This document shows, in pieces, positions 7,770 to 27,669 of a DNA stretch of 49,307 nt. Numbering within the stretch: the first letter of the stretch is position 1; every line of letters starts with the position of its first letter. Location of the stretch: assembly GCA_902798755.1 (NCBI GenBank), contig CADBYC010000009.1:58778-108084 (forward strand). The letters run 5' to 3'. Under the pieces are notes generated by a model. It ran no database searches. It was not told the DNA's origin and saw only the letters and a program-made list of their open reading frames with translations. Position numbers and translations under genes: made by a program. This stretch comes from an uncultured Ruminococcus sp. Lineage in GTDB: Bacteria > Bacillota > Clostridia > Oscillospirales > Acutalibacteraceae.

Positions 7770-7798
7770 TTGACTATTTGACCCTGATTTGCTATAAT
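7770..7798 (+). promoter_or_regulatory. Promoter of giant-protein operon 1
   Basis: TTGACT (7770-7775), a 17-bp spacer, and TATAAT (7793-7798). It would give a long leader of about 330 nt before the start at 8134. The rest of the 540-bp gap holds the elements shared with operon 2 (7903-7914, 7979-8006, 8071-8110); I see no gene in it. Confidence 0.65.
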
Positions 7799-7978
7799 GC
7801 TAATATAAATAACAGGATGATAAGGGTTACTCTGCCCTTTTGCAGCAAAAATGCATCAAAATGAACAATTTTATAACGCTGAGATCGCGTACATAAAATT
7901 GCCATTTTGTGCATGTTGCACAAAAGCAAAAACCTGAATTTGTCCGATAGTAATGAGAATTTCAGCAATTTCTCAAAA

Positions 7979-8006
7979 TGCATATATGCAGCATATATGC
8001 AGCATA
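7979..8006. promoter_or_regulatory. Double palindrome operator-like site, copy 1
   Basis: Two 10-bp palindromes GCATATATGC (7980-7989 and 7991-8000) sit 11 bp apart, about one helical turn, followed by the half-site GCAT. The same arrangement with the same spacing lies upstream of the second giant gene (24139-24169). Just upstream, CATTTTGTGCAT (7903-7914) is also shared. A binding site for a dimeric regulator is the simplest reading; the regulator is unknown. Confidence 0.6.
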
Positions 8007-8070
8007 ACAGCGCATATTTACACCGAATTGTCCTTGGAACTTCGATGATCTCATTCGTAATAAAGGCATC

Positions 8071-8110
8071 AATTCTGTACTCTTTACAGATTTATTATAG
8101 ATCGCAAAAA
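8071..8110 (+). promoter_or_regulatory. Conserved leader block upstream of giant gene 1
   Basis: AATTCTGTACTCTTTACAGA followed by TTTATTATAGATCGCAAAAA is nearly identical to the minus-strand block at 24085-24125. It lies 24 nt before the start codon and could hold a second, activator-dependent -10 (TATTAT here, TATAAT in the other copy) or an RNA element. The RBS and start context GGAGGAAACCTTATGAAATC are shared too. Confidence 0.55.
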
Positions 8111-8133
8111 ATCTTTTATAGGGAGGAAACCTT

Positions 8134-11100
8134 ATGAAATCAAAATGTACGACTATTGTTAAGGTCACAACAGCTCTGGTTCTGGCTGTTCTGATGATGG
8201 TCGGCAGCGTTGCGAACGTTGTCGGCGCCGTCGTCGAGCAGGCTCAGTTCAGCGCCGACGCGATCGTCGCTTCGGCTCAAAAGGGTCTGGAGATCGCCGA
8301 CGCGGCGAACGTGACCGATACGGACGAAGCTCCGGCGGCAGTGGACGAAGCACCTGCCGAGGATGAAGCTGCGCCCGATCTCTCCGACTTCGAAGAGAAC
8401 GAGATCGTCACCCGTATGAAGGAAGATTTAGCTGATACCGGCGCGAATGTTGATGTCGCCGATACCGGCGCGGCTGACGTTTACGGTGTAAAAGGCAGCT
8501 GGGATGGTTGGACTAATGTTACTTATTTCAACGCTTCTACAAAAAAATGTACGGTAACTCTGCCTGACGCCAATTCTGATTATACATTTAAGATCTATTC
8601 TTCTTATGGCCAAACTTATTACGGAGCTAACCATACCTTTACTGATTCCGGCGATTATTATTTCAAAACTACTGAAGGCGATGCTAAGCTCACTACTAAC
8701 AGTTATACCAACGCTACCTATACCTTTGAGCTCAAGCGCGAGGATGCAAGTGACGGAGCTGTAAATATTGGTATCACTTATCCGACCAGCGGTGGCGGCG
8801 GCAGCAGTACGCATCCCGGACTCTGGATTTACGGAACTATCAACGGTGCAACTGGTGATAATCCTGCTACTGATGGTAAAGCTTTGACTTGGGTTGCTAA
8901 TAGCGGCGGTTACGATTATTATTATTACAAATTTGATGCTAGTAAGAATAATTATTTTAAGTTTACTGATGATCAAGGATCACAATATAATCCGCAAAAT
9001 AACTCTGACAATGTGACTGTTTCCAACAATGCCACCAGCATGTCCGGCTCATGGAAGAACGGTACTAGCGGATCACAGAATCATCATTTTACATTACCAA
9101 ATAATGCGTTTAGAAAGACCTTATGGGTGAAATACAGTGAACACAGCAGTGTCAGTTGCTGGTATTCCGTCGAGTACTATGCCCTTACCGGTTACCTTGA
9201 CGGTGATGATGTTACTTCTGAAGTGACTGCAAATAGGTTCTCCACTACTGACGGTATCACTTATACGTTAACAAAAGCTTTCACAACCTCAACTCAGTAT
9301 GTTACTATCAGAGACGGTAACGGCAACGCTTTCCATCCCTCTACTCATCCTTCCGGCAACGGTGCGGCTGCTGATCCGACTAAGTCTGACCGCTCGCCCG
9401 GTAATGACAACAAGTGGCTCGTCACAGGCACCGCCGGCAAGAACGTCGAATTCACGTTTAACGTCGGAACAGGTGTTCTGTCATGGGTAGTTAAGGGTAA
9501 CAACGTTACCGTTTACGCTAAAGACGGCGCTGCGCCCATCAACTGGAATGACACTGAAGGTAATCATACCGCGCAGAAAGAAGGTCCCGGTGCGACCGGC
9601 CTCGACGGATGTTATTTCAATAATAAGACCAATTATTTGTACAACTTTGCCGCTATAGCTAAGACCACGATGTCGTATGCTGACGGAACAGCTATCGCAG
9701 GTAAGACCACTACCAATTGCGATATCAATCAAGCCCCTTCTTACAATTACGAAAGTGATTTTGAAACTGGTACGATAGAAGCGGGCAAATCTATCAAGAT
9801 CACCACAACAATAACAGATGCAAAAAGCTGGCGCTCGACTTACTACGTCAAGGGCTGGAACATCAACGGCTATACCTATAAAGTCGGCTCCAACGTCAAG
9901 GGCGTCAACAGCTCTACCGATGGCAGCAGCGGTGCGTATACCATGTACTACACCATCCCCATCAACTCTGCTGCCGGTGCAAAGATCGAGATCACGCCGA
10001 TCTATTACTTCCAGAGCAACTCCAACTGCATCACCTTCTACCTCGAAGGCTTTGATCCTACACTGCAGACTACCGGCGGTTGGGGCAATACTCCATATGC
10101 TTTCCCTTTCTACGGTAATATAGACGGTTATCAGGACAGCTTCGGCGTATATCCCGGTCAGCCTATGGTATATGTGGACGGTAAGTACTCTATGGAAGTA
10201 CCGATCACCAGTAAGGCGATCGACCCTGCCAAGAATGATAACGATGGTACTGTTATCAAGGGCATTACCGTATCTAACGGCTACGCCGACCATGTACACC
10301 GTAATTTGGTTTACGATTGGAACACAGCGTCCGGAGACATCAACAACGACGAGACACATATGCAGACCTACGACTTTGACGACTTCTACAAGATCTATAA
10401 CGAGAAGCGCGACAGTCAGGGCAACAAACCTAACGCTATCATCCTGCGTATCAAGAAGGAAGATACAAACTATAACCGTAATACTTACGGCAGCGCTAAT
10501 AACGGTATCAACTGGGGATTTACTAAAAATGATCCAAGCAGCAGTTTGTCTGCTAACGAAGTAAATACGATCGCCGGCAGCACTCGCAATGGCTGGGAGC
10601 TGTTGACAGACCGTTACGGCAGACCTGTTGACCTGTTCGGCAACGTTATTGGTACATCTTACGACGCTGCGCTCGAGCAGTCTAAACCTGCTATTCGCGT
10701 GATCTCCACGGGCTATAATGAAAATATTGCCGGTGACTATGGTACAGGCTGGCTTATCTATACGCCGAATCAGACTGCTTCAAATTACTCGACTCAAACT
10801 ACAAATAACGGCAGTTCGATCACCGGAGATGCCGGTTACAGAGGCGGCACTTATGAACTGATGACAGCATCCGATACCAGAAAGGCTGCTCCTCCTTCAG
10901 TATTCCTTCTCTCGTCAGCTTCGAGTTTTAATACAACTACTTATCCTGATGCGAACAGACCGAATTACGACGGAGCCAACTATACAGATTCTATAAACAA
11001 TTACAAACCTCTGTATAACACTTTAAAGACATCCGGTGATGACGGATATAACGCTATCGGTCGTTATGTTTACATCACATATGAAAAGAACGCACAGCGT

Positions 11101-13299
11101 ATCGGTAAAACCAATTCAAGCTCTGATACAAACAATTACGGAGCTAAAAGACTTGACGCCAGATGGTACTATTCTTACGCAACCGATATGGTCAAGTCCA
11201 AGATAAAAGTACAGGTACTCAACGAAAGCACCGGAAAATATGTTGACGTTGGATTTGTAACCGATGGCAGCGGCTATAACCGTAAGAACAATGTTACGAC
11301 TGCTACAACTGTCAACAGTAAGGCAGCCGGCGGCTTAAAGGCTTACTTTACAAATGCCGGCTTTGACGGTGATGTTGTTTCGCCCGATGTGCTGATCAAC
11401 TCCGGTGATTTTGAGATGACTGCAAAGGCTACCACCGGCTGGATGTTTGACAGCTGGCAGATCGAGTACGATGGCGGCGTATATACCGAACTGAGCGATA
11501 AAGCGAGTGCTTCTACGCCGATGTCTGCTTCCGATACGCTCGTAGCGCGCTTCAAGCCCATCAACGAAGGTAACCTCAGCCTTTCGCACCATCTTAGCTC
11601 TGATTCCACAGGTTCCGGTACGACTGAAATGAATGTAGAGGTTTATTCCGACGATACTAAGAGCGATCTTTTGTGGCAGAGCGGTTTAACAACCGATGAC
11701 GTTACGCTTGACGGCAGCTATATCTCAAATGCGCTCGGTAATGTATATATTCAGGTTACTCTGAAGACGACGCCGGCCGGAGATGATAAGATCAATCAGA
11801 TGAGCGGTCCGTCAAGTACGTTCTTTGGCGGTACGACGTCTAAGGATATAACAGAACAAAATGCAGCTTATACATATACTTTCGGCTTTAAAGTAAGCGC
11901 CTTGTACGGCAATAATAATACTCAGACTACTCTCTCACTGCCGTACTACTCGCGCGTGATTATCCAAGATCATACATATAAAATCACTTATCAGTATCCG
12001 AAGCGCGGCAGTACTAACAATGCTACCGACGGCAGCTATACTGTTAGCGGCACATTTACTGCTAAAGAATATGAGACATATGTCACCGGTACCGGAGCAG
12101 GACGAACCGTTGACTTGAAATTCATCAGCGATAAGGCGCCTCATGAGAGCAATTTCAATAAAGATTTGACGCTTACTGCAGGTGGAATCTCACAGAGTTA
12201 TAATACGTCATCTTACGCTCATACTATCACAGCGACGTTTACACAGACTGATTCGCTTGACTCGTATGCTATCTTTGACCTGCCGTACGACTATTATACT
12301 ACGACTGGCACGGGTTACAAAATGTATACTGCGAAGCCTAATGAGCAGGGTAAAATACTTGAGAATCACGATATACCTCATGTAGAGATAGATACACTTT
12401 ACGGTAGATACTTCACTACTACAGCCACCTACAATGAAGACAGAGCACATAAGGTAACTGATCCTACAGATGTAAATCATACCGGTAACGACTTCATTAC
12501 CGCTCCCGATGAGATTTACACCTCTGATGGTACTACTCAGCAATTCTTTAAATATTGGTCTGTCAAGACTGTTGATGCGTCTGAAGAACTGTTTAAGCTC
12601 TATTATCCCGACTTTCACTACCGTTCCTGCGGTAACTACTACGTCGAACCGATCTACAGTACGGAACCCGCTGATAGTTGGAAGATGAAATATTCCGATA
12701 GTGGATTAGCTGCGTCGATCCTCTATCTTGATAGCTCTCGTAACCAGTGGAACTCTTCAACGGAAACTAACAATTCTTCCTCAGCTACTGCAGCAGACTT
12801 GATTTACAACGATTTCATGCTCTCGTTCAATTATAATAGTGCTGAGATCAACGGCAATAATGATATTGATGACTGCGGATTGATTATCGAACGTGTTAAA
12901 GACGGTAACAACCAATACGTATTAGGTGATCCTACGACCGAATCCACGACCGGTTACAAGACTGCTTATTCCGGAACTATACTTAGCAAAGCAAATTTGA
13001 ATGAAGTAGTTAACGGTACCAATAATCACGGCTGCATGAAGATTAATGCAAAATCAGACGGTACTCTTATCAAGAACTGCTTAGACAATAAGAATAGAAT
13101 GGAATACTACTATTCGTTCTACAGTCAGTACGGTCAGGCTAATGCTGTAGGCGGCAATGGTACCGGTTATGCATTCAAAACTGACTCGGTAGTAGATAAC
13201 TATGTTTACAGAGCTTATGCGTATATTAAGGATAAGAATGACAATATCGCTACCAGTGATCCCACATATTTCAGCATGAAGTATGAAGCCAGTAAGTAA
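8134..13299 (+). CDS. Giant secreted modular protein with starch-binding-like modules
   Basis: This 1721-aa protein has a Sec signal peptide (MKSKCTTIVKVTTALVLAVL, hydrophobic to about residue 33), then an acidic, Ala-rich stretch and many beta-rich modules heavy in Tyr, Trp, Thr, Asn and Gly. Around residues 110-480 repeated units of the type 'G..ngW...Y.FK' resemble carbohydrate-binding beta-sandwiches. Around residue 672, GVYPGQPMVYVDGKYSMEVP and a following SNGYADHVHR resemble a CBM26-type starch-binding module. A bacterial-repeat segment (GWMFDSWQ) lies near 1102. I see no dockerin, LPXTG motif or C-terminal anchor. The signal peptide, leader, RBS and PGQPM module are shared with the 2511-aa protein, so the two are paralogues. 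Glycan binding is inferred. Confidence 0.85.
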   Translation: MKSKCTTIVKVTTALVLAVLMMVGSVANVVGAVVEQAQFSADAIVASAQKGLEIADAANVTDTDEAPAAVDEAPAEDEAAPDLSDFEENEIVTRMKEDLADTGANVDVADTGAADVYGVKGSWDGWTNVTYFNASTKKCTVTLPDANSDYTFKIYSSYGQTYYGANHTFTDSGDYYFKTTEGDAKLTTNSYTNATYTFELKREDASDGAVNIGITYPTSGGGGSSTHPGLWIYGTINGATGDNPATDGKALTWVANSGGYDYYYYKFDASKNNYFKFTDDQGSQYNPQNNSDNVTVSNNATSMSGSWKNGTSGSQNHHFTLPNNAFRKTLWVKYSEHSSVSCWYSVEYYALTGYLDGDDVTSEVTANRFSTTDGITYTLTKAFTTSTQYVTIRDGNGNAFHPSTHPSGNGAAADPTKSDRSPGNDNKWLVTGTAGKNVEFTFNVGTGVLSWVVKGNNVTVYAKDGAAPINWNDTEGNHTAQKEGPGATGLDGCYFNNKTNYLYNFAAIAKTTMSYADGTAIAGKTTTNCDINQAPSYNYESDFETGTIEAGKSIKITTTITDAKSWRSTYYVKGWNINGYTYKVGSNVKGVNSSTDGSSGAYTMYYTIPINSAAGAKIEITPIYYFQSNSNCITFYLEGFDPTLQTTGGWGNTPYAFPFYGNIDGYQDSFGVYPGQPMVYVDGKYSMEVPITSKAIDPAKNDNDGTVIKGITVSNGYADHVHRNLVYDWNTASGDINNDETHMQTYDFDDFYKIYNEKRDSQGNKPNAIILRIKKEDTNYNRNTYGSANNGINWGFTKNDPSSSLSANEVNTIAGSTRNGWELLTDRYGRPVDLFGNVIGTSYDAALEQSKPAIRVISTGYNENIAGDYGTGWLIYTPNQTASNYSTQTTNNGSSITGDAGYRGGTYELMTASDTRKAAPPSVFLLSSASSFNTTTYPDANRPNYDGANYTDSINNYKPLYNTLKTSGDDGYNAIGRYVYITYEKNAQRIGKTNSSSDTNNYGAKRLDARWYYSYATDMVKSKIKVQVLNESTGKYVDVGFVTDGSGYNRKNNVTTATTVNSKAAGGLKAYFTNAGFDGDVVSPDVLINSGDFEMTAKATTGWMFDSWQIEYDGGVYTELSDKASASTPMSASDTLVARFKPINEGNLSLSHHLSSDSTGSGTTEMNVEVYSDDTKSDLLWQSGLTTDDVTLDGSYISNALGNVYIQVTLKTTPAGDDKINQMSGPSSTFFGGTTSKDITEQNAAYTYTFGFKVSALYGNNNTQTTLSLPYYSRVIIQDHTYKITYQYPKRGSTNNATDGSYTVSGTFTAKEYETYVTGTGAGRTVDLKFISDKAPHESNFNKDLTLTAGGISQSYNTSSYAHTITATFTQTDSLDSYAIFDLPYDYYTTTGTGYKMYTAKPNEQGKILENHDIPHVEIDTLYGRYFTTTATYNEDRAHKVTDPTDVNHTGNDFITAPDEIYTSDGTTQQFFKYWSVKTVDASEELFKLYYPDFHYRSCGNYYVEPIYSTEPADSWKMKYSDSGLAASILYLDSSRNQWNSSTETNNSSSATAADLIYNDFMLSFNYNSAEINGNNDIDDCGLIIERVKDGNNQYVLGDPTTESTTGYKTAYSGTILSKANLNEVVNGTNNHGCMKINAKSDGTLIKNCLDNKNRMEYYYSFYSQYGQANAVGGNGTGYAFKTDSVVDNYVYRAYAYIKDKNDNIATSDPTYFSMKYEASK

Positions 13300-13317: not shown

Positions 13318-13470
13318 ATGAAAAGAGAATACTCCTCACCGGATTTCGAATTCGTTAAGTTAACGATCACCAAGGACGTTCTTACTATAAGCGACCCTGA
13401 ATCCTCTATTCCTGAGGGCGGCGGCGGCGCAAGTGCCGTAGATGATCCTTTTGCCGGATTAGGTGGTTGA
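13318..13470 (+). CDS. Small Gly-rich peptide A (candidate secreted or modified peptide)
   Basis: A 50-aa reading frame starts 18 nt after the giant gene, with GAAAGGG as ribosome site. It begins MKREYSSPDFEF, continues with TKDVLTISDPESS, and ends with GGGGASAVDDPFAGLGG. Peptide B after the second giant gene shares the plan: MK-basic-x-Y-x-x-P-acidic-hydrophobic-E, then D-V-I/L-x-x-S, a Gly run, and acidic-PF near the end. The same plan at the same operon position argues for a real gene. A leader-plus-core structure processed by the PqqD/peptidase/ABC operon at 24507-27669 is an inference. It contains no Cys, and no family assignment is offered. Confidence 0.75.
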   Translation: MKREYSSPDFEFVKLTITKDVLTISDPESSIPEGGGGASAVDDPFAGLGG

Positions 13471-13534: not shown

Positions 13535-14557
13535 ATGAAAAAAAAGATTACTATTATTATTTCGATTCTTTTAGCCGTCTCAGTGGCTGCTTTATCTGTG
13601 ATAAGCGCTTTTGCTGCCACGATTTTTGTATCAGACGGTTATTCATACACGTTTTTAAATGATGATTACATTTCGATTTGCGACTGGGATGACAGCAGTG
13701 ATTATCTGAATATTCCTGCGCAGATTGATAATAAATATGTGAAAGAGATCGCTGACAGAGGATTATATGCCGATACGTTCATAACTTCGGTGAGTTTTAA
13801 TCGTGCGATTTATATGAACCGCATAGGCATCATGGCGTTTAAGGGATGTACCGGTCTATCCGGAAAGTTATCGCTCCCTTACTGGATCAATGATATCGGC
13901 TACAGCGCGTTCCAGGATTGCGGATCGATCACATCTGTCGAATACTACGCGAGCACCTCGGCGGTACCGGATCAGTGCTTTTATAACTGCGCCGGTCTGA
14001 ACAGCGTCATTATCGGCGACGCGGTAACCTCGATTTCAAAATTGGCTTTTGCAGCTTGCCCTCAGCTAACATATGTCCGTATCCCGCAAAATGTGACTTA
14101 TATCGCGCCGTCGGCATTTAACGGCGACAATGATTTGGTCATCTACTGTTATACTGACAGCTATGCTCATCAGTATGCCGAGGACAAAGGCATCGAATAT
14201 GTGCTGATCGACGCGCCCGATCCTACCGAGCCTCCGACTGAGCCGGAGCCTACGGAACCGTCACCTACTGACGCTCCTACAGAGCCGGCGCCTACCGAGC
14301 CTCCGACTAATCCGGAGCCGACGCAAGCAGCGGGCTACTACCTTGGTGACTTTGACAACGATAGAAAGGTTGATTCCATCGACGTAACCTATCTCCAGCG
14401 CTATCTCGTGGGTATTTCTGATCCCGAAACAAGCGTATTAGAACAAGGCGATGTCGACGGCGACGGGGTCATTACGATCATCGACGCTACCTTTATCCAG
14501 AGATATCTGGCGGGAATAGATACTCCGTATCCGATCGGCGAATGGATTTCAGAATAA
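13535..14557 (+). CDS. Secreted BspA-type leucine-rich-repeat protein with type I dockerin
   Basis: The protein has 340 aa: a signal peptide (residues 1-28, ending SAFAA), LRR_5/BspA-like repeats at about 85-200 (IGIMAFKGCTGL, IGYSAFQDCGSI, ISKLAFAACPQL, IAPSAFNGDNDL), a Pro/Thr/Glu linker (about 229-268), and a type I dockerin from about 270. Both calcium-binding repeats are intact: GDFDNDRKVDSIDVTYLQRY and GDVDGDGVITIIDATFIQRY. The dockerin should attach it to a cohesin scaffold on the cell surface. It is third in the giant-peptide-LRR operon. Its 309-aa relative is the third gene of operon 2. Confidence 0.92.
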   Translation: MKKKITIIISILLAVSVAALSVISAFAATIFVSDGYSYTFLNDDYISICDWDDSSDYLNIPAQIDNKYVKEIADRGLYADTFITSVSFNRAIYMNRIGIMAFKGCTGLSGKLSLPYWINDIGYSAFQDCGSITSVEYYASTSAVPDQCFYNCAGLNSVIIGDAVTSISKLAFAACPQLTYVRIPQNVTYIAPSAFNGDNDLVIYCYTDSYAHQYAEDKGIEYVLIDAPDPTEPPTEPEPTEPSPTDAPTEPAPTEPPTNPEPTQAAGYYLGDFDNDRKVDSIDVTYLQRYLVGISDPETSVLEQGDVDGDGVITIIDATFIQRYLAGIDTPYPIGEWISE

Positions 14558-14638: not shown

Positions 14639-14639
14639 A

Positions 14640-15158
14640 TCAGATATCAGGAAATGCCTGCTCATCATCCAATTCACTTGGATCGGGAGCGGAAGCAACT
14701 AAGACGGGGATCTCGTCTTCTACACCATTTTGTGCGTCTTCGGAAGACACGGACGATTCGGATTTAGCCGAAGACGAGGCGGAAGTCTTTCCGTTTTCAC
14801 TGTCTTTTACGGCTCCGGATCCGCTGCCTTTTGCGGATGAAGAGCTTTCAGCGTTTGTCAAAGACGTCGTGATCCAGCTATGCGTTCTGATATACTCGGT
14901 AATATCAACCTCGTTGCCGTTTTTATCAACGACCTTGGTGATCTCGCCGTCTTTATCTTTGCTGATCTTGTTTCCTTCGGAGTCCTTTTCTACCGTACTT
15001 CCGTCTGAATTTTCTACCAAGACAACTGTGGTTTCCTGTACAGCGGACGAATCCGGCGTTGCCTGACCGGCTGTCGAGCTGTCGTTGCCACAGGCGGATA
15101 AAACGCATGTTACAGCCAAGATCACAGCTGTTATCATGATAAACAGTCTAAGTTTCAT
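14640..15158 (-). CDS. Small lipoprotein, Ser/Asp/Glu-rich
   Basis: The 172-aa protein has a lipoprotein signal peptide (MKLRLFIMITAVILAV, lipobox LSAC at about residues 19-22). It then has a low-complexity acidic segment, a short beta-like repeat region (SDGSTVEKDSEGNKISKDKD, GEITKVVDKNGNEVDITEYI), and a Ser/Ala/Glu-rich tail ending ELDDEQAFPDI. It should be lipid-anchored on the outer face of the membrane. It is the last gene of operon 2, 21 nt after the LRR-dockerin gene. I recognise no family; a surface tether or sensor is possible but unproven. Confidence 0.85.
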   Translation of the reverse strand: MKLRLFIMITAVILAVTCVLSACGNDSSTAGQATPDSSAVQETTVVLVENSDGSTVEKDSEGNKISKDKDGEITKVVDKNGNEVDITEYIRTHSWITTSLTNAESSSSAKGSGSGAVKDSENGKTSASSSAKSESSVSSEDAQNGVEDEIPVLVASAPDPSELDDEQAFPDI

Positions 15159-16205: not shown

Positions 16206-16352
16206 TTAAATATCATCAAACGGGTTTTCGCCGCCTCCGCCGCCTCCGCCGTTGATCTCTGAGTTGATGGTTCCCTCAGTGCTGACAAGAATCACATCAG
16301 GGAGCTTGAACGATTTCAGTTCCAACTCAGGAGCCTCATATATTTTTTTCAT
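16206..16352 (-). CDS. Small Gly-rich peptide B (candidate secreted or modified peptide)
   Basis: A 48-aa frame starts 29 nt after the 2511-aa gene, with a good TGGAGG ribosome site. It begins MKKIYEAPELELKSF, continues LPDVILVSTEGTINS, and ends NGGGGGGGENPFDDI. It shares the Y-x-x-P-acidic-hydrophobic-E block, the D-V-I/L...S block, the Gly run and the PF ending with peptide A. It has no Cys and no signal peptide, so export would need the ABC transporter or another route. The function is unknown; a leader/core precursor is the favoured hypothesis. Confidence 0.78.
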   Translation of the reverse strand: MKKIYEAPELELKSFKLPDVILVSTEGTINSEINGGGGGGGENPFDDI

Positions 16353-19300: not shown

Positions 19301-22300
19301 TGATCCAACACCGTAGCCGTGAGAGAGATAGATGTTCGGATAGATGTATGAAGGTTCAACAGTGAATTTACCCTTTGCGTCTACACCGGGTTCATAATAG
19401 ATCGTAATTGGCGCATCATAGCCGGGATAATCAGACGGTTTAAACTTGATAGCGCCCATCTGAATCTTCCAGTTATCAACGCTATCAGTTTGTCCGTTTT
19501 CGGCTTTTCTGATACGACCGTATTTAATCTTACCACTTACTTCGGTAACAAAGTCGTTTTGCAAAGCGTCACTATTTGTCCAAAGTGCGCCTTGGCTGTT
19601 ACCGGTCGCTTCATCATAGAACTGGAAGTAAGAATTGCCCATTTTACTGTAATCGCTCCAGTAATAATGTTCGCCGGCTTTATAAGTGCCTCCCATCGTG
19701 AAACCGTCGGTGGAAACGCGAGAATACATATCAGGAGTGATTGTCCAGTAATACTTACCGTTGGTACCGAGGCTGGGATCAAAGCTCATCTTGAAGTTAT
19801 CATAATTATTGGCAGAGTTCCAATCGGTAGTCGCACCGGTAATATACTTAGAACCGTTGATGAACAAGTCGCGGGTACCGACCGCATAGATATATGTATT
19901 TTTTCTGGGAGTATAGTTCAGGGTCTGTTTATCGGTGATATAACCGTTCGCATAGTCGGGACCGGTTGAATCACCGGTGTACCAGCCGTTGAAGGTGTAA
20001 TAGCTACCTAAGCCATCCTTGAATGTATAAGTATAGTTGATGGTGTCGCCCTTATTGACGGAATTAGGACCTACTCTATTAGGAGCTGAATCCCAGTTCT
20101 TTGTCTGCTTTTGGAAAGCAGAACCGCTCTTAGTGGCCACAACATCAGCAACCTGACCGAATTTGCTCCTGCTCGCAACGCCGTCGGCGACGATCTTCGA
20201 GTCAAGATACATACTGTACTTGACAGTCGGATTGACCTCGATCACAATGTTAGTGTTCGGCATATTTCCGGTGACCTTGATATATCTTGTGCTGTCGGTC
20301 GTGCCGGAATTTTCGATCGCCGTACTATCTGAGCTGTAAGCAAAGGTAATACCGGGTACTACTACGTCACTGGCCTTATTGCCGTGCTCGTCAGCGGGAT
20401 AAGCCTTGATATCAGCTATGGCGATAGAATTGGTCTGGTCGGCGTCGCCCTCAGCCTTGATGTAGAGATACTCATCCTCAGTCGTACCGGACAGTGCCTC
20501 GCCGATGCTGTAGTAGTCGTCAAGGTTCTTGGAATGGATCACAGCGCCATCACTATTAGCGAAGAATACATAGAACTTGGAACCGAGCTCGATATCGATG
20601 TTGCGGTAGTTCTGTGCCGCGTTAAATTTGACGACATGCGTATCCTGATCGATTTCCGCCGTATAGCTCTCATCCTCAGCATCAATTGCCGTAGGCTTCG
20701 ACTGACCGGAATGGGAACCGTTTTCTACCGTTTCGGAATTTGTATACAAGTTTTTATCCGCGAAGAGAGTAGTCGTCGCTTCGTAGGTATACTTCCAGTC
20801 GTCGTCGGTACCGGTACCCTGAGTGACAGGCGCGCCGTTCGTATACTTCCTGTCAGGCTCGCCTTCCAAGGTGTAGCGGATGCCGTTGTTGAAGAAGATA
20901 CCTCTGATCGCCTCGGAGGAACCGAGCGCGGAATAATAGAGCTTGACTTCATTGCCCGCCAGGATCTGGATCTTGTTACCTTCATGGAACGTGCCGGATG
21001 CAGAGATAGGCGTAGCGTCTTCACCTGTATTGGTGGGGAAGGTCTGATGCGAGAAGGTATAGGTCAGGGTGCGGTCATCGCTCTTGACCTCGATCTTGGA
21101 AGGCGGAGCAGCGATCTTGGAGAAGTCGTTGCCGACCGGTACCCAAGAGCTGTACGCGGTGAGGTAATAGACCTTTCTGAACTCCGCGCGGAACTTATAG
21201 GTAGTGGAAGTCATCTGCTGCAGTACAAAGGTATTGTTCTGCATCGAAGTTGTGGCAGGAGTCGCCTGAGCCGCGGTAGTATCAGTCGCTACGGTCTCCC
21301 AGGTAGTACCGCCGTCATAAGACATCTCGATCTTACTGACCGCATAGCCGGAAGCAGCGGTTGCGGAAATGGTGACACTATCATTATAGTCAGCTGTTCC
21401 GCCGTTGCTGTCGGTGAATGTGATGGTACCGCCGGTGCAGGTGGCGCTCGTTGTGCCGTTAGTGTCGTTAAACGCGCCGCCGTCGGTATAAGACGCGCGG
21501 GTGCTGATGGTGTAATGGACCGGATTAAACAGAGCGTGGATCTCAGTGTTCTCGGTGGTCATTCCGGATGTACCGTCGGTCTTTGCGTAGACCGTTGTAG
21601 GCAGAGGACTCTCGTTGCCGGTATAAGCTGTTGTACATTCTAAGTCAGTATATAGTGTAATATGAGAACCATTTGTACCACCGGTTTCCCAACCGTCGAA
21701 GGTATATCCGTCTTCAGTTGTCGCTCGAATGATTGCAGGACTTGCCGTGGTAATACCAAAAGTATTGTCATCTATCGTTGCGGTTGCCCCAGGTGTACCG
21801 GTACCAACCTTGACCTTTCCGCCGGTGCCGGAAGCGGAACCGTTGGTGTAAGCCTTAACGGTAGCGCCCGCTTTGATTTCAGTGTAGCGCGCAGTATAAG
21901 TAGCTGCAGCAGTGATATCGGTAGCGCCGACAGTTGTTTTCTTCGTACCGCTTGAATTATACCAACCGTCAAATTGATAACCGGTAGGCGGTATCACTTC
22001 ATAATACTTATTAGCTATAGTATCAGCCACGCCATAGGTATGGGTAAAAGTAGCGGTGTTCGAAGCAGCACTTCCGGAGGTTGCCATGATTTTACCGCCA
22101 TTCTTATTAGCATCAAGTGTAACCGTGTAGGTGTTTGCCGTCATGGGAGTGTAATAGGTCACGGAAACAACATTACCCGTTATAGCAGTTCCGGTATATT
22201 CAGTGCTGAAAGCATTGGTAGTATACCATTTAATAGGAGTAACTTGAGTGTATCCTGTGGCGGTGATAGCCTTACTGCTCGATCCGAAACCGCCGTAGGC

Positions 22301-23917
22301 AACCACCTCAGTTGCAGCAGTGCCGACATTCTTGCTTTGCGCCGTGCAGTAACCCTGATATGAAATCTTTATAGGTAAATCGGCATAGAACTTACCGTCT
22401 ACAACGTCATAATAAACTTTAGTATTAGCCGAACCAATATCGTGGAGATCAATATCGCCAGCATTTCCGGATGACCAAGCTCCGGCAGAGACGCCCGTTC
22501 CGGAAAGTCTGGATGCATTAGTGGTAATAGCAGTCGTATAAACGCGATTAGCGCTTCTGCTGCTGTCATAGATAACCCAGTAATGATGATCCTTTGCCCA
22601 ATTGTTTATTGTAGTACTGTATACGACATGGCTCGCCTTACCGCCTGATAAAGCGGCAGAAGCGTCTGAGTCGTAAGCCAAGGTGATCTGACCTTTTGTA
22701 ACGCCCGAAGTAGAGGGAGTAGCGCCGCCGCTGACATCAGACTTTGTCGTACTGTGCTTAAAGTAGATATTACCCGGGTCGGTAACGGTGACGGTAAGAT
22801 CAGCATCTTCTGCATTAGTGCTGTCGCAGTGAGCTTTAATCTTATATGTACCTGCACCGTTAGGTGTAAAGGTTATCTCACTTGTGCCAGAATAAGCAGA
22901 GAGATAATTGTCACCATAAGAACCGCTGTCTTTTTTTACCTGATAGGTGATCGTACCTGTGCCGGTGCTGTGTGCTCCGGTAAACTTCAAAAGCTGATTC
23001 GTATAGATAGACTTGGAAGTTACGGTAGAACCGCCCACAGTAAATGTCGGCGTGCACAGATTTCTGGCTTCAAAGTAAATTTTATTAGCTGTTACGGTTG
23101 ACGCAGAAGCGCCCTCAGAACTATCGTAACCCTGCGCTTCAGCTTCGAGAGTATAAGTAGTACCGGCGGTCAGGTTTGAAGAAGAAGTATAACTCAGCGT
23201 ATTGCTTGAGGTAGTTGTATATGAGCCCCAAGAGCCGCCGTTCCACTTGAAACGTACTCGCGTTCTATCATCAGAAGCACTGTTAGCTTTAGTTACAGTA
23301 GCTGTAGCGGTCGCCTTAGTTCCGGCCTTCACTATATACGGATCAGCTTGAGTACCGGAACCGGAATAAGTACCGGCAAGAGTGACCTTAGAAGGAGGAG
23401 GTGTCGATACATCCAGATCTTCAGTCCTCCAACTAGTAGTATTATTATAGTACCAGCCCATAATACCTTCGGAATCCATTACATTCGACCATCCGGAAAA
23501 GCTCTTTTCACCAGTACCATAAGCAAAATTCGTATTACTTGTGCCCGAATAGAACTGAATGTGAGAAACATTAGTATGACCTTTTGCACCATCACTATAG
23601 AACAAATTTGGGTTGTTAGAATCTTTAGTCATTGTATATGTATTATATGAACTAGTATCATTATTATAATATACTCGCATATAAACATTTCGTGAAGATA
23701 ACTGCCAAGTAGAATAGACTTTAGAGGCATCAAAATAAATCGGATAGTCACTGGAAATTGTAAACCATCCGGTTTCAGCCAAATCTGCCTCAGCGCCGGT
23801 GTCGGCATAATCATCTACAACAGCCGCGACTGAACTCGCCACTGTGCCGAAGAGCATCAGCAGCGCCAGTACGAGAGCCGTAGAGGCCTTGAGGATAAAC
23901 GAACATTTTGATTTCAT
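16382..23917 (-). CDS. Giant secreted modular protein with starch-binding-like and InlB-like repeats
   Basis: The start is the ATG at 23917 (MKSKCSFILKASTALVLALL), because it follows GGAGG and aligns with the 1721-aa paralogue; the longer upstream frame is repeat sequence. The 2511-aa protein has a signal peptide, a DDYADTGAEADLAETG segment, Ig-like and beta-rich modules, InlB/Flg_new-type repeats (GYQFDGWY near residue 647, GYTFDGWE after it, KQFIGWYEY near 2315), and a PGQPM module near 1690 resembling a CBM26 unit. I see no dockerin, sortase motif or membrane anchor. It heads operon 2. A surface glycan- or starch-binding role is inferred. Confidence 0.85.
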   Translation of the reverse strand: MKSKCSFILKASTALVLALLMLFGTVASSVAAVVDDYADTGAEADLAETGWFTISSDYPIYFDASKVYSTWQLSSRNVYMRVYYNNDTSSYNTYTMTKDSNNPNLFYSDGAKGHTNVSHIQFYSGTSNTNFAYGTGEKSFSGWSNVMDSEGIMGWYYNNTTSWRTEDLDVSTPPPSKVTLAGTYSGSGTQADPYIVKAGTKATATATVTKANSASDDRTRVRFKWNGGSWGSYTTTSSNTLSYTSSSNLTAGTTYTLEAEAQGYDSSEGASASTVTANKIYFEARNLCTPTFTVGGSTVTSKSIYTNQLLKFTGAHSTGTGTITYQVKKDSGSYGDNYLSAYSGTSEITFTPNGAGTYKIKAHCDSTNAEDADLTVTVTDPGNIYFKHSTTKSDVSGGATPSTSGVTKGQITLAYDSDASAALSGGKASHVVYSTTINNWAKDHHYWVIYDSSRSANRVYTTAITTNASRLSGTGVSAGAWSSGNAGDIDLHDIGSANTKVYYDVVDGKFYADLPIKISYQGYCTAQSKNVGTAATEVVAYGGFGSSSKAITATGYTQVTPIKWYTTNAFSTEYTGTAITGNVVSVTYYTPMTANTYTVTLDANKNGGKIMATSGSAASNTATFTHTYGVADTIANKYYEVIPPTGYQFDGWYNSSGTKKTTVGATDITAAATYTARYTEIKAGATVKAYTNGSASGTGGKVKVGTGTPGATATIDDNTFGITTASPAIIRATTEDGYTFDGWETGGTNGSHITLYTDLECTTAYTGNESPLPTTVYAKTDGTSGMTTENTEIHALFNPVHYTISTRASYTDGGAFNDTNGTTSATCTGGTITFTDSNGGTADYNDSVTISATAASGYAVSKIEMSYDGGTTWETVATDTTAAQATPATTSMQNNTFVLQQMTSTTYKFRAEFRKVYYLTAYSSWVPVGNDFSKIAAPPSKIEVKSDDRTLTYTFSHQTFPTNTGEDATPISASGTFHEGNKIQILAGNEVKLYYSALGSSEAIRGIFFNNGIRYTLEGEPDRKYTNGAPVTQGTGTDDDWKYTYEATTTLFADKNLYTNSETVENGSHSGQSKPTAIDAEDESYTAEIDQDTHVVKFNAAQNYRNIDIELGSKFYVFFANSDGAVIHSKNLDDYYSIGEALSGTTEDEYLYIKAEGDADQTNSIAIADIKAYPADEHGNKASDVVVPGITFAYSSDSTAIENSGTTDSTRYIKVTGNMPNTNIVIEVNPTVKYSMYLDSKIVADGVASRSKFGQVADVVATKSGSAFQKQTKNWDSAPNRVGPNSVNKGDTINYTYTFKDGLGSYYTFNGWYTGDSTGPDYANGYITDKQTLNYTPRKNTYIYAVGTRDLFINGSKYITGATTDWNSANNYDNFKMSFDPSLGTNGKYYWTITPDMYSRVSTDGFTMGGTYKAGEHYYWSDYSKMGNSYFQFYDEATGNSQGALWTNSDALQNDFVTEVSGKIKYGRIRKAENGQTDSVDNWKIQMGAIKFKPSDYPGYDAPITIYYEPGVDAKGKFTVEPSYIYPNIYLSHGYGVGSTSKQTDDSGSYQSELKWMNNGSESSTNISKQGSGWLPNHEGKVNHYKVTTKDATVRVKKTTHANDKISAFFVYDLSDNKVYAIRDVESSGNTYYADIKMQTGHDLYICPIIEEKSADMTVYFDATQLNSNRWGKIVSCYTWYQENDSPTLGEFPGQPMIPSDDGTSWVAKFPSKKGGAANGSEVADITFSNYIDGGKRDNVDHGHSWLAEPGVLPNVTDHTAGTYDNSSSVCKFKYNDMGTADDGTTTYRRINCKVQTYDYREPISYYKNHLAIGSDDITLTFAIKMGNSDHVMSLKHSELKQGNIFEGIDHTHSNGTLVAHEGKFTAKNFQYLTNAKGDQYTDLNGDPLGADNKPSATYYVIAKGEVIYKNGNLEQVFWSGKRNESKSALSYYGTNNSVPTGAGAVNETYTGVSMNYGVEWYVYDASGNYITNILSAGYADYESLTAGAINDDSVLGARLKELGYAVDGKSVAICYDKPRYMYGDDTSDNVKYINSGNNFDSFRATGQWYKNEAFQTATVSVGVGMMTDSGEVLAATNNGGYGEAWARYDTTKGTYSQYASPTPLGQPHDYVTAAQKDAVNTPIRLDASADNFQGWYYYDPGTGEFTKASYTEPDNFRPNYSKDIKYYAMYRAAAIYKYAYQGREGVDYYTTSGGDLTETELTDNLVRTSEAIRTPGGKGQYDVSALAPDASKVSVFKTTLDFSNQTTYDNTTPYFLNIGTVTSTVSNYTLTYYYPDSKNGKLAVHTRTAAYNTTVDLQSIGSTVTGNAPDGKQFIGWYEYNATTGEYGNLLTTQPNYGFVMTKNQTIAAKYDTTAPADDGLWSAYIDDNQITTQMNSATTGKYYNDTIVRFRKGQNAAAHVPQGSEFGVLVLNGGKTNKNIQTGTSNLTNFASNMSSGDTRKIGTEGKTVTKISKIVTDANGTPLTYYNRFDFALRSDYTAVLGSNYTVYAFAKIDGTYYWTQVASGTYE

Positions 23918-24047: not shown

Positions 24048-24084
24048 TTCACTCGATCATTTTTCATTCTTGACTCAATTTGAT

Positions 24085-24125
24085 TTTTTTGCGATCTATT
24101 ATAATCTGTAAAGAGATACAGAATT
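24085..24125 (-). promoter_or_regulatory. Conserved leader block upstream of giant gene 2
   Basis: Read on the minus strand, AATTCTGTATCTCTTTACAG followed by ATTATAATAGATCGCAAAAA corresponds to the plus-strand block at 8071-8110. Here it lies about 170 nt before the start because of the repeat insertion, versus 24 nt in operon 1. Confidence 0.55.
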
Positions 24126-24138
24126 AGTGCCGAACTTT

Positions 24139-24169
24139 ATGCAGCATATATGCGGCATATATGCTGCAT
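24139..24169. promoter_or_regulatory. 31-bp palindromic operator-like site, copy 2
   Basis: Two GCATATATGC palindromes (24144-24153, 24155-24164) flanked by ATGCA and TGCAT form a perfect 31-bp palindrome around position 24154. It lies in the 590-bp region between the divergent giant gene 2 and PqqD-like operon, so it may control either or both. ATGCACAAAATG (24242-24253), the reverse of the CATTTTGTGCAT seen in operon 1, is nearby. The rest of the gap is AT-rich with no gene. Confidence 0.65.
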
Positions 24170-24490: not shown

Positions 24491-24506
24491 TTTCACGGGT
24501 GTTATT

Positions 24507-24770
24507 ATGAAAGTAAAAGACAACTTTATTTTGAAAAAGATCGCGGGTTCCTATATGGTCGTTCCCGTTCGCACGAGAGCGGTCGATTTCTCGGGTATCA
24601 TCAAATTATCCGAGAGCGGTGCGTTCCTTTGGGGCATCCTCGAGAAGGGCGCGGATAGGGAAGAGCTGATCGCAAAAATGCTCGATGAATACGACGTTGA
24701 CGAGGCGAGAGCCGCCGCCGATATCGATAGATTTATCACAAAGCTCAGAGAGGCTGATCTGCTTGAGTGA
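24507..24770 (+). CDS. PqqD family peptide-recognition protein (RRE-like)
   Basis: This 87-aa protein matches the PqqD fold: an N-terminal beta pair (FILKKIAGSYMVVPV), then FSGIIKLSESGAFLWGILEKGADREELIAKML, then DIDRFITKLREADLLE. PqqD-like domains (RiPP recognition elements) bind leader peptides and hand them to modifying enzymes or peptidases. It is the first gene of an operon with a peptidase, an HprK-fold protein and an ABC exporter, divergent from giant gene 2. No radical SAM or cyclase gene is seen here. Peptides A and B are the nearest candidate clients. Confidence 0.88.
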   Translation: MKVKDNFILKKIAGSYMVVPVRTRAVDFSGIIKLSESGAFLWGILEKGADREELIAKMLDEYDVDEARAAADIDRFITKLREADLLE

Positions 24771-25221
24771 GATCATCGCGCCCGCGGATTTTATCGCCGT
24801 CATGCAGGAGAGCTTCTCGCGTGGACAGCTGATTACCTTTACGCCGTCGGGGTCAAGCATGCTCCCGATGCTGGACGGAAAGAATGATAAGGTGACCTTT
24901 TCACCGAAGCTCGAGCGACTGCAAAAATATGACGTTGCGTTCTATATACGCCGCAGGACAGGTCAGCTCGTACTGCACCGCATGATCGGCTTCACAAAAG
25001 ACGGCGGATACATCTTCTGCGGCGATAATCAATATTCCTATGAGTACGGAGTAGGGGACGACGATATCCTCGCGCTGATGACTTCCTTTACCCATAACGG
25101 AAAAGAGCGCAAGGTCACGGATTTATCCTACCGCTTTTATGTTCAGCGGCTCATGCTCAAAAAACGTTTCAGACGTTTTGCGAGCAGGGTCTATCACAAG
25201 TTATTTGACAGATCAAAATAA
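24763..25221 (+). CDS. S24/S26-like serine peptidase (signal peptidase fold)
   Basis: The start is probably the TTG at 24763, overlapping the PqqD stop with GAGG upstream; the ATG at 24802 is an alternative. The protein of about 152 aa shows TPSGSSMLPML (nucleophile serine in the SM pair, about residue 32), YDVAFYIRR, QLVLHRMIG (His about residue 72) and YIFCGDNQ. This is the Ser-His pattern of Sec11-type signal peptidases rather than the Ser-Lys pair of LepB. No clear membrane anchor is visible, though the C-terminus is basic. Within this operon it may cut a leader peptide. The substrate is unknown. Confidence 0.8.
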   Translation: MSEIIAPADFIAVMQESFSRGQLITFTPSGSSMLPMLDGKNDKVTFSPKLERLQKYDVAFYIRRRTGQLVLHRMIGFTKDGGYIFCGDNQYSYEYGVGDDDILALMTSFTHNGKERKVTDLSYRFYVQRLMLKKRFRRFASRVYHKLFDRSK

Positions 25222-25252
25222 ATACATTTGATTTTTCTGACGGAGTTACAAC

Positions 25253-25924
25253 ATGGCTTTATATCGCATTTCTGATTTGAATGTTGACATCAAAACAAAT
25301 TCCCCGACGCTTGCCGAGAACATCAAGCGCTATGAGGTGACCTACAAGGCGACCCCGAATATCACGCTTGAAATGAGCGACGACCGCCTTCTCGAAATGA
25401 TGGAGGAATATGAGGGCATGACCGCCGACGCGGTGGAATCCCTCTATATGGCGACCCTGTACTCATGGGCGATTTTCGATTTCAACGGCTTTCCGATCCG
25501 CGCGATCGGTGTCGAGAACGACGGCGAATGTACCTTGTTTGCCGCTCCGAACGATAATACGACTGCGCTGAATCTGCTGATCCCGCGCGATAAGGTTTTC
25601 GTATATGATTACCCCGGTATCCGTATGCAGGACGACGACTACTTTGTCTTTGATACGCCGTTCGGCGATTACGGCAAATTGTCCGTAACCGGCAAGAAGC
25701 TCAAGCTCAAGTCGATCGTCTTTGTCGACAGAGATCGTTTTGATTCGCTACGTGAGATAGAGGCAAAGGATTTTGTGCCGCTGTTCATGCGCGCCGTATC
25801 GCAGAACGTCCGTCAGGAGCGCACAAAGCATACGCTGTTTATTCTCGAGCGCGTCATGCACCGTGTAAAATTCTTCGGCGTCGGCGACGTCAATGATTTT
25901 GACTTCATTATAGAGAGAGTATAA
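25253..25924 (+). CDS. HPr kinase/PEPCK-fold protein with degenerate P-loop
   Basis: The 223-aa protein fits the HprK-related family often found beside PqqD proteins: an N-terminal region (about 1-70), then a segment reading GVENDGECTLFAAPNDNTTALNLL where kinases have a G-x-x-L-F-x-x-PSGTGKST P-loop, then YDYPGIRMQDDDYFVFDTPFGDYG where they have an SDD...GTPW motif. The P-loop Gly-Lys-Ser/Thr core is replaced by NDNTTA (about residues 100-105), so ATP-dependent kinase activity is doubtful. A scaffold, pseudokinase or divergent nucleotide site is possible. It lies between the peptidase and ABC genes. Confidence 0.65.
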   Translation: MALYRISDLNVDIKTNSPTLAENIKRYEVTYKATPNITLEMSDDRLLEMMEEYEGMTADAVESLYMATLYSWAIFDFNGFPIRAIGVENDGECTLFAAPNDNTTALNLLIPRDKVFVYDYPGIRMQDDDYFVFDTPFGDYGKLSVTGKKLKLKSIVFVDRDRFDSLREIEAKDFVPLFMRAVSQNVRQERTKHTLFILERVMHRVKFFGVGDVNDFDFIIERV

Positions 25925-25927
25925 AGT

Positions 25928-25970
25928 GTCATTGCGGGGAGCTTTTGCTCCGTAGCAATCTCAACCGATC
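25928..25970. repeat. 40-bp interspersed repeat, copy 2
   Basis: GTCATTGCGGGGAGCTTTTG followed by CTCCGTAGCAATCTCAACCG; central hairpin GGAGC-TTTT-GCTCC. It separates the HprK-like gene from the ABC gene without breaking the operon. TTG codons within it extend the ABC frame artificially. Confidence 0.75.
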
Positions 25971-25992
25971 AAATAGTTTTTCGGAGGATCAA

Positions 25993-27669
25993 GTGTCCAA
26001 AAAGCAAAAAAGCGCCTTGAGCTGGATGATCAACAGCTCAAGGCCTCAGTTTATCAATATTATTATTTTGGCTGTCGTCTACGGCGTGAACGCGTTCATC
26101 GGCGTGTATAATACCGAATTCGCGCGCGATCTGGTAGACGCCGCGGTCAAGGGCGTAAAGGGCGGAGCGTTTGATGACGTTATCCGCTACGGACTGCTGT
26201 ATTTCGGCATTACGGTCATACAGATCGTGACGCTGATCATGGCGCGTAATTACGGCTTCAAGGTCAGCGCCAAGCTCGATATGAGCATCAAGTCAAAGCT
26301 GTTCCGTTCAATGATGATGAAGGACTACGGCGATATCTCCGCCTATCATTCGGGCGAGCTGATGAACCGCCTGACAAACGACGTCAATGTCGTGACCTCT
26401 GCGATTGTGTCGATCATTCCGAGTCTGGTATTTTTCATCGTCAAGATCATCGGTATCTTTTACATCTTAGTGCGCATCAATGTGTGGTTTGCGTTGGCAT
26501 TTGTTGCAGGCGGTGCGATCGTCTTTGCAATATCGACCTTGTTCAAGCCTGTATCCAAGCGCCTGCATAAGGACGTACAGACGAAGGAGGGCAAGGTCCG
26601 CTCTTTCATGCAGGAGGGCTTAGGTTCGTTGTTGATGATCAAGACCTTCGGCGCTCAGGAAAAGATGCAGGAATCTGCCTATTCCTTACAGCAGGACAGC
26701 TATCGCTCTCAGCGCAAGAGGAACATCTACTCCATTATAACCGGCACAGGTATGTCCGCTGTTTTCTCTTTTGCCTTTGTCTTTGCCTTCGGTTGGGGCG
26801 CTTACATGCTGTATTACGGCGCGATCTCATACGGCGTACTGATGCAGATCACTTCGCTGATCGGTCAGATCCGCACGCCCATACAGGGCATGGCGAGCAT
26901 CTTCCCGACTTATTTCACCGCGCTTGCTTCTGTTGAAAGGATCATGGAGATCGAGAACATTCCCGATGAGCAGGAGCTTCACAGCAACGTCGATACACAG
27001 AAGCTGTATGACGAAATGGAAGCGATCTGCTTTGATGGTATCAGCTTTGCGTTTGATCGAGATATTGTCCTCGATTCCACTTCCCTGACGATCAAAAAGG
27101 GCGAGTTCGTCGCCATAGAGGGTATCTCAGGTATCGGCAAGAGCACGCTGATGAAGCTGTTACTCAGCGTATATCAGCCCAAACAAGGCGAGATATACAT
27201 TCGTACACATGATGAAAAATACATCGTCGACAAGAGCCTGAGAAAGCTGTTCTCCTATGTGCCGCAGGGCAATTTCCTGCTGTCGGGTACGCTCAGAGAG
27301 AACATCGCCTTTGTCGCTCCCGACGCGACGGACGACGATATCATGCATGCCGCCCGTATTGCCTGTGCGGAGGAATTCATCAAAGAATTGCCGCAGGGCT
27401 TAGATACCGTGATCGCGGAGCATGGGGGAGGGCTAAGCGAAGGACAGGTACAGCGCGTCGCGATCGCGAGAGCGATCCTGACGAGAGCCCCTGTCATCCT
27501 GCTTGATGAAGCGACCTCCGCTCTCGATGAAGCGACTGAGATCCAGCTCCTGCACAATCTCAGAGAACTGCAGAACAAGACTTGTATCATCATTTCCCAC
27601 AAAAAAGCCGCCGAGGAGATCTGTGACAAGACGGTCACGATCGCGGATAAGAAAATCAGGATCAACTGA
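25993..27669 (+). CDS. ABC transporter, fused permease and ATPase (peptide exporter type)
   Basis: The start is the GTG at 25993, with GGAGG 5 nt upstream. The 558-aa half-transporter has an N-terminal six-helix exporter domain (ABC_membrane type, about 20-310) and an ATPase domain with Walker A GISGIGKST, Q-loop VPQGNFLLSG, signature LSEGQVQR, and Walker B/D-loop VILLDEATSALDEA. It has no C39 peptidase domain, so any leader cleavage must come from elsewhere, such as the S24/S26-like protein. It probably works as a homodimer and exports a product of this operon or its neighbours. Confidence 0.9.
   Translation: MSKKQKSALSWMINSSRPQFINIIILAVVYGVNAFIGVYNTEFARDLVDAAVKGVKGGAFDDVIRYGLLYFGITVIQIVTLIMARNYGFKVSAKLDMSIKSKLFRSMMMKDYGDISAYHSGELMNRLTNDVNVVTSAIVSIIPSLVFFIVKIIGIFYILVRINVWFALAFVAGGAIVFAISTLFKPVSKRLHKDVQTKEGKVRSFMQEGLGSLLMIKTFGAQEKMQESAYSLQQDSYRSQRKRNIYSIITGTGMSAVFSFAFVFAFGWGAYMLYYGAISYGVLMQITSLIGQIRTPIQGMASIFPTYFTALASVERIMEIENIPDEQELHSNVDTQKLYDEMEAICFDGISFAFDRDIVLDSTSLTIKKGEFVAIEGISGIGKSTLMKLLLSVYQPKQGEIYIRTHDEKYIVDKSLRKLFSYVPQGNFLLSGTLRENIAFVAPDATDDDIMHAARIACAEEFIKELPQGLDTVIAEHGGGLSEGQVQRVAIARAILTRAPVILLDEATSALDEATEIQLLHNLRELQNKTCIIISHKKAAEEICDKTVTIADKKIRIN

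Follow-up and report, generated by a model that had tools for sequence, protein, structure and literature searches.

The rpsR-rex interval and its operons

The stretch analysed here (the window) comprises 49,307 nucleotides of an uncultured Ruminococcus sp. and lies on contig C9 of an assembly of 2.44 Mb in 74 contigs that is 90% complete. We focused on the interval bounded by rpsR (7361-7594) and rex (27752-28381), both of which were named from their sequence. It consists of two convergent operons (A and B), each encoding a giant protein, a peptide of about 50 amino acids (aa) and a leucine-rich repeat (LRR) protein with a complete or degenerate dockerin, and of a divergent operon encoding a PqqD-family protein, an S26-like peptidase, an HprK-like protein and an ABC exporter (Table 1). 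The PqqD-family protein is of the type that serves as recognition element (RRE) for ribosomally synthesised and post-translationally modified peptides (RiPPs).

The original prediction, made from the sequence alone, had read this interval as a peptide maturation and export system that serves or labels cell-surface starch-binding proteins. All genes that it placed in the two convergent operons and in the divergent operon are present. The gene order that it described as the same in A and B holds for the giant, peptide and LRR genes, whereas operon B has an additional lipoprotein-like gene and a dockerin that scores under the cut-off. The common leader that it saw upstream of both giant genes is real: the two regions align over a 48-column block in which 43 bases are identical (E 2e-12), and both have tandem GCATATATGC repeats. 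The 21-base tandem GCATATATGC pattern (at most two mismatches) was found at two sites in the window, one upstream of either giant gene, and in none of 100 shuffled sequences.

Table 1. Genes and leader elements between rpsR and rex, with their positions in the window.
Feature	Position	Strand	Evidence
Leader of operon A	7980..8111	+	tandem GCATATATGC repeats 7980-8000; block common to operon B 8065-8111
Giant A, 1721 aa, N-terminus MKSKC..., signal-peptide-like; common C-terminal signature	8134..13299	+	
Peptide A, 50 aa, YSSPDF leader, Gly/Pro/acidic tail; motif-pattern match in own-genome search	13318..13470	+	
LRR-dockerin protein A	13535..14557	+	LRR_5 E 1.6e-23, Dockerin_1 E 2e-12
Lipoprotein-like ORF, last gene of operon B	14640..15158	-	lipobox-like N-terminus read directly; no Pfam above cut-off
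LRR protein B, degenerate dockerin	15180..16109	-	LRR_5 E 7.4e-29; Dockerin_1 E 0.015, under cut-off
Peptide B, 48 aa, YEAPEL leader; motif-pattern match in own-genome search	16206..16352	-	
Giant B, 2511 aa from MKSKC start, signal-peptide-like N-terminus	16382..23917	-	ATG at 23917 preceded by ribosome site GGAGGAAACCTT
Leader element of operon B	24085..24164	-	block 24085-24131, tandem repeats 24144-24164; common to operon A
PqqD-family protein, lasso-B1-like RRE	24507..24770	+	Pfam PqqD E 8.3e-17
S24/S26-like peptidase without membrane segment, Ser and His boxes conserved	24763..25221	+	homology to own-genome paralogue
HprK-fold protein, predicted pseudokinase	25253..25924	+	predicted structure, residue scoring, selection
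ABC exporter, fused membrane and ATPase domains	25945..27669	+	ABC_membrane E 2.4e-31, ABC_tran E 2.8e-29

Recurrence of the giant, peptide and LRR genes

We searched a panel of 148 genomes, 90 of which belong to the same genus. The HprK-like protein has a homologue in 75 of them, and 20 genomes (the window's own included) hold one at ≥49% identity. The same layout is found around these homologues and in 35 loci from a scan of genome contigs, which places the arrangement in dozens of genomes. The contig scan was seeded with motifs of the pseudokinase clade, and the figures of 36/36 given below describe that clade only. The closest recorded loci come from Ruminococcus-like or uncultured Clostridia genomes, many of them, by their titles, from ruminant guts (goat, sheep, roe deer, reindeer and cattle).

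In regions chosen by a match to the peptide profile alone, an open reading frame (ORF) of ≥700 aa ended about 75 bp or less upstream of the peptide in 33 of 40 cases. The same was true for 1 of 101 control ORFs, which were short, had a ribosome site and were de-duplicated (1/127 before de-duplication). The 40 regions comprised two batches, with 15/20 and 18/20 positive, and two of them (L204 and L206) carry an identical peptide. A wider set of 66 distinct peptides, de-duplicated by peptide sequence, contained two at a contig edge; of the remaining 64, 47 adjoined a giant gene, a figure inflated by the 29 peptides from which the profile was built and which were mostly chosen for an adjoining giant (28/29). 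Without these, 19/35 were adjacent by the strict definition and 27/35 had an ORF of ≥300 aa within 200 bp. In all but one of the 47 adjacent pairs the giant and peptide genes were 8-29 bp apart, and an LRR gene followed within 900 bp of the peptide in 48/61 cases of the wider set and in 17/20 regions of the second profile-chosen batch. With dozens of genomes showing this arrangement, and a giant adjoining in 33/40 regions versus 1/101 controls, the grouping of these genes is beyond chance.

The peptide profile matches 84 of the 148 genomes (E <= 0.01, at which one or two of the 148 could be chance). Where the contig extends 4 kb or more upstream of the HprK-like gene, 22 of 26 orthologous loci contain a peptide, the four without one being L081, L083, L085 and L091. 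Of the 36 genomes of the pseudokinase clade, 31 carry a peptide, be it in the locus or at another site (E <= 0.01; L081 only at 0.0048). These two counts support the view that the peptide operons go together with the PqqD operon. The original prediction had staked its case on the four-gene operon not occurring mostly without a giant/peptide operon and on conservation of the peptides across genomes, and both are what these searches revealed. In a genome of another family (G147; L178 and L220), the peptide gene precedes the large ORF instead of following it.

Lasso-type leader, PqqD protein and HprK-fold protein

The peptides follow the consensus MKKxYxxPExExVxxxLxxDVLxxS, after which comes a tail rich in Asp, Glu, Gly and Pro. 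In 29 leaders M, Y and P are invariant, and the motif reads YxxPx(L/F/I), with mostly L, F, I or V at the last position. The leaders thus carry the YxxPxL motif of lasso-peptide precursors. Lasso cores have a conserved start and a ring-closing Asp/Glu at residue 7-9. The tails of our peptides are acidic but show, by eye, no conserved start or spacing, and among 30 tails we saw no Cys and no conserved acceptor residue. In passages of one report, the motif residues correspond to Tyr(-17)/Pro(-14)/Leu(-12) and are needed for leader binding by the lasso B1 protein (PMC10368454); an excerpt of another describes how PadeB1 binds the leader and hands it to the protease (PMC5067487).

The PqqD protein of the window would fit this role. 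Its nearest PDB chains are TbiB1 (5v1u/5v1v, E 7.8e-4) and a lasso PqqD chaperone, which identifies it as an RRE protein of the B1/PqqD kind, and it scores under the cut-offs of the NCBIfam lasso PqqD models (35.4 of 70 and 31.4 of 80 bits). It also stays under that of TIGR04353 (21.1 bits, cut-off 35), the model of the HPr-rel-A system, which pairs a PqqD-family protein with an HprK relative. The present system resembles HPr-rel-A in combining these two kinds of protein, but differs in that its PqqD protein does not reach the model. A PqqD-family match was found in 83/84 peptide-positive versus 26/64 peptide-negative genomes (Fisher 6e-17, not corrected for kinship), where PF05402 matches of any kind were counted, long frames included. 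Outside the genus the corresponding counts were 10/10 and 12/48 (1.2e-5); within it, 87/90 genomes have a match and the test has little power. From the motif and the family of the protein, we infer that PqqD binds the peptide leader through YxxPx(L/F/I).

Further PqqD proteins occur in the same genome. One PqqD match falls in a 493-aa frame next to a small Cys-rich peptide on a different contig. On C9, outside the window (L059, 9578-11865), a diverged second pair of PqqD and S24/S26-like genes stands upstream of a gene for a CotH-kinase-dockerin protein (CotH E 3.1e-28; dockerin E 5.7e-4, under the cut-off).

We considered whether the locus is a lasso cluster and rejected this, as no match to PF13471, the B2 leader protease, was found in the assembled genome and no asparagine-synthetase-type cyclase on the window's contig. 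Three Asn_synthase matches lie on C15, C42 and C46, and nine of the 90 genomes of the genus have a PF13471 match, one of them above the cut-off. Nor was a radical SAM enzyme among the Pfam and NCBIfam matches listed for ten scanned proteins. The lack of the lasso protease that the original prediction noted is thus confirmed for the assembled genome. As far as passages of the respective reports describe them, the bsf lasso cluster of Bradymonas has a split B protein, an HprK-like kinase and a predicted nucleotidyltransferase (PMC10368454), and the paeninodin lasso cluster includes a kinase (PMC5067487). The present system is like these clusters in its discrete PqqD-type RRE, YxxPxL leader, HprK-like protein and ABC exporter, and some of its cousins share the nucleotidyltransferase. 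It differs from them in its dead kinase, in an S26-like peptidase in place of the missing protease, in the absence of a cyclase from the contig, and in its giant and LRR-dockerin partners.

These similarities raise the question of whether the locus is a true RiPP pathway that has escaped recognition, in which the tail is modified and released as a signal or antimicrobial and the giants are merely co-regulated neighbours. The tail would be phosphorylated in kinase-intact forms and otherwise altered by the nucleotidyltransferase. NTP_transf_5, a gene type also present in the bsf cluster as excerpted (PMC10368454), is found in the kinase-intact loci L145 and L156 and in the PqqD-S26 operon of L187, which has no HprK on its 9.4-kb contig. 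L157 combines a peptide with HprK, PqqD, S26 and ABC genes, although there too they stand behind an ORF of 1080 aa. At L156 (7280-11700), intact HprK, PqqD, S26 and nucleotidyltransferase genes accompany two peptides with the same type of leader, one of which has several Cys; no giant is present in the 18 kb seen, and the locus looks like an undescribed RiPP-like one. However, the giant that adjoins most profile-chosen peptides, the dead kinase of the window's clade, the lack of a visible nucleotidyltransferase in the window's operon and the absence of Cys or a visibly conserved acceptor residue from the tails make such a pathway unlikely here.

The HprK-like protein has no Pfam family, and a PDB sequence search returned nothing. 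Its predicted structure (confidence score pLDDT 92.8) has 14 fold matches at E <= 0.001, all of them phosphoenolpyruvate (PEP) carboxykinases, and matches HprK/P structures more weakly (E 5.7e-3 and above). As HprK shares the PEP carboxykinase fold, the HprK fold of the original prediction is upheld. We scored seven catalytic positions in 36 sequences of the window's clade and in 31 other HprK sequences, a subset of all HprK matches. The clade is set apart by a branch with 100/100 support. Both scored Gly, the Walker Lys, the Ser and the first catalytic Asp are lost in 36/36 of its members and the catalytic His in 35/36, while the column of the second Asp holds Asp in 15/36. Among the 31 others, 29 keep all seven positions and two keep six. 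The residues conserved in lasso kinases are H, G, G, G, K, S, D and D, as listed in a passage of PMC10368454. Because the ATP-loop residues and the first catalytic Asp are lost throughout the clade, kinase activity of the HprK-fold protein is unlikely, and it would be a pseudokinase.

The locus could also be what is left of a lasso or kinase RiPP cluster in decay, with its active site lost, its peptidase lost repeatedly and its exporter not found in a sister group (see below). The ratio of non-synonymous to synonymous substitution rates (dN/dS) argues against decay, as it is 0.03-0.13 for the PqqD, HprK, S26 and ABC genes where comparisons are unsaturated. For the HprK-fold gene it is 0.06-0.13 in six comparisons, the seventh being saturated and dS being high throughout, near saturation. 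In addition, R190 and K192-L195 (RxKHTL, mostly ERTKHTL) are invariant in all 35 aligned HprK-fold sequences. Judging from this purifying selection, the protein is maintained and not a wreck, which leaves the remnant hardly credible.

Kinase-intact relatives also lie beside triads. A peptide occurs within 6 kb in 14 of the 31 other HprK sequences, a count that stems partly from the choice of regions, some of which were partly picked for the closeness of a peptide match to an HprK match. L158 has a kinase-intact cassette in the same rpsR...rex interval. A further kinase-intact subfamily (L146, L160 and L161) stands in a seemingly housekeeping context, next to what is presumably a thiamine pyrophosphokinase gene and, in two of the three, what we take to be a YbaK-type gene. 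As some HprK relatives occur in such other contexts, we rejected HprK alone as a marker of the system.

Possible role of the peptides at the cell surface

The peptidase has no Pfam match of its own, but is homologous (E 6.2e-17) to a paralogue in its own genome with a Peptidase_S24 match just under the threshold. In an alignment of 30 sequences, its Ser is kept in 27/28 and its His in 29/29 ungapped rows, and the window's protein has no membrane segment. The gap between the PqqD and HprK genes is 457-575 bp where the peptidase gene is present and 15-43 bp where it is not (L063, L086, L088, L094 and L096). Parsimony on the HprK tree gives at least three separate losses, and no match to the window's peptidase turned up at E <= 0.01 in the short-gap genome G039, which is 100% complete. 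An orthologue of the exporter was not found in ten genomes of the sister group (L086-L090 and L092-L096). Their best-scoring ABC matches are 24-32% identical, whereas orthologues reach 81-86%, and in one of these genomes there is a further match of 176 aa at 43%. The peptidase and exporter are thus optional and not essential. The part of the original prediction that tied a peptide system to surface proteins is likely to be correct, whereas maturation and export are weakened as its core function because neither of these two components is essential.

As PqqD, pseudokinase, peptide and giant survive without the peptidase gene and without a detected ABC orthologue, a cytosolic role is a serious rival to export. 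The peptide would then remain within the cell as a secretion aid or sensor, its tail would contact the giant before the giant is exported, and the leader would recruit PqqD and the HprK-fold protein, with cleavage and export as additions. The position of the peptide gene, mostly directly after the giant gene, agrees with this. On the other hand, purifying selection acts on the peptidase and exporter within the group to which the window belongs, several kinase-intact cassettes include them, and the literature searched offers no precedent. We regard this role as rather improbable, but worth serious attention. An exported peptide pheromone or bacteriocin, with the giants as effectors or adhesins of unrelated function, is far less probable. 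The operon does contain an exporter with fused domains, and none of the 25 NCBIfam exporter models listed for it reaches its cut-off. However, no orthologue of this exporter was found in any of the ten sister-group genomes, and no regulator or immunity-like gene was recognised in the rpsR-rex interval. Among the 14 Pfam families listed for the exporter there is no C39 peptidase.

To what extent the tails belong to particular giants can be seen from their co-segregation. Tail types agree with types of giant C-terminus in 97 of 114 quartets, compared with a mean of 50% and a maximum of 71% in within-genome shuffles and with 73/103 for the leaders. This signal of co-evolution is real, yet the LRR control shows linkage that is enough to explain it. 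In 65 triads with an LRR gene, the tails agree with the giants in 65/75 cases and the LRR proteins in 79/82. As the LRR proteins agree with the giants even more, inheritance as one unit would be enough to account for the co-segregation of tail and giant. The rank correlation over all pairs was weak (0.126).

Our best explanation, which we hold tentatively, is that lasso-peptide tailoring parts were turned into an RRE-guided adaptor-peptide system that serves giant surface proteins. In it, a gene for a peptide of about 50 aa comes after each giant gene. The first ~24 residues of this peptide are a common leader to which PqqD would bind, and its acidic, Pro/Gly-rich tail differs between giant types. 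The HprK-fold protein, with its active site lost, may be a non-catalytic partner of PqqD. Where present, the soluble Ser/His peptidase would cut off the leader and the ABC protein would export the tail, which could then act at the surface or during secretion as a small partner for the giant and the LRR-dockerin protein of its own triad. Judging from gene counts, cassettes of the PqqD/HprK type probably serve several triads per genome in trans. All this suggests that antibiotic-making parts have been reused for cell-surface proteins. A bolder version, which we consider possible but more doubtful, is that the universal leader addresses shared machinery and the private tail a single giant. This adaptor library, run by lasso-type leader recognition and a repurposed pseudokinase so that RRE chemistry would assemble a cell surface and not a natural product, would be a new class of system.

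Several observations weigh against the adaptor system, besides the LRR control just described. Seven of the 40 profile-chosen regions have no giant just upstream of the peptide: in L168 and L178 the large ORF is 213 and 237 bp off, L220 has the reverse order, and L175, L179, L184 and L208 are further misses (giant cut by the contig end). No peptide was found in the metagenome-assembled genomes L069, L070, L079 and L080 of the pseudokinase clade. The complete four-gene operons of L081, L083 and L085 have no adjoining triad, and giant/peptide pairs lie at other sites in the L083 and L085 genomes. Nine sampled triads with a kinase-intact HprK have no PqqD nearby (L147, L149-L155 and L165). Finally, L091, a genome of 1.4 Mb, keeps the pseudokinase, and no orthologue of PqqD, peptide, peptidase or exporter was found in it. 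Its orphan pseudokinase (9601-10666) comes directly after rpsR, in the place that giant A occupies in the window.

If the adaptor system is correct, leader-guided peptide machinery is at work outside natural-product synthesis, and the HprK family offers a natural pseudokinase that can be compared with kinase-intact cousins, of which at least one sits in the same interval of the chromosome. We found no description of the giant/peptide/LRR and PqqD/HprK arrangement in the literature searched. The analysis also delineates a surface-protein unit, common but as yet without a name, among Ruminococcus relatives that live in ruminant guts. What it adds to the original prediction is an HprK-fold protein that is dead yet selected, the repeated loss of the peptidase gene, and a sister group in which no orthologue of the exporter was found.

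LRR-dockerin proteins are known in R. flavefaciens, according to part of one report (PMC2930009). The present system is like ruminococcal dockerin or cellulosome-type complexes in having such proteins, and LRR protein A has a dockerin while the genome has two cohesin matches, the second barely above the cut-off. It differs in that the LRR-dockerin genes are linked here to peptides that an RRE would bind, for which the literature searched gave no parallel. In a variant operon (L187, L190 and L192), genes for a giant, a small lipoprotein-like protein, a short dockerin protein, PqqD, S26 and NTP_transf_5 follow each other. No YxxP peptide was recognised in it, NTP_transf_5 was Pfam-tested in L187 only, and L192 is cut at the dockerin gene.

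Giant A has no Pfam family at E <= 0.1 and giant B no Pfam match above the cut-off, and the model of the giant C-terminal domain is weak (pLDDT 68.6), with no fold match at E <= 0.001 and no notable PDB sequence match. The starch binding assumed in the original prediction found no backing, as no starch-binding module or other relevant match came out of sequence searches with both giants against Pfam and the PDB, although such searches could miss remote modules. Many giants end in a signature of the LDNKNR...YVYRAYAYI...S.PxYFxMYD type, although there are several types of giant. One giant (L153, 2125-8457) does have Pfam domains, namely DUF7601 (five stretches), InlB B-repeat and DUF5979. These domains are usual in surface adhesins, and may be a hint to the nature of the giants that have no family.

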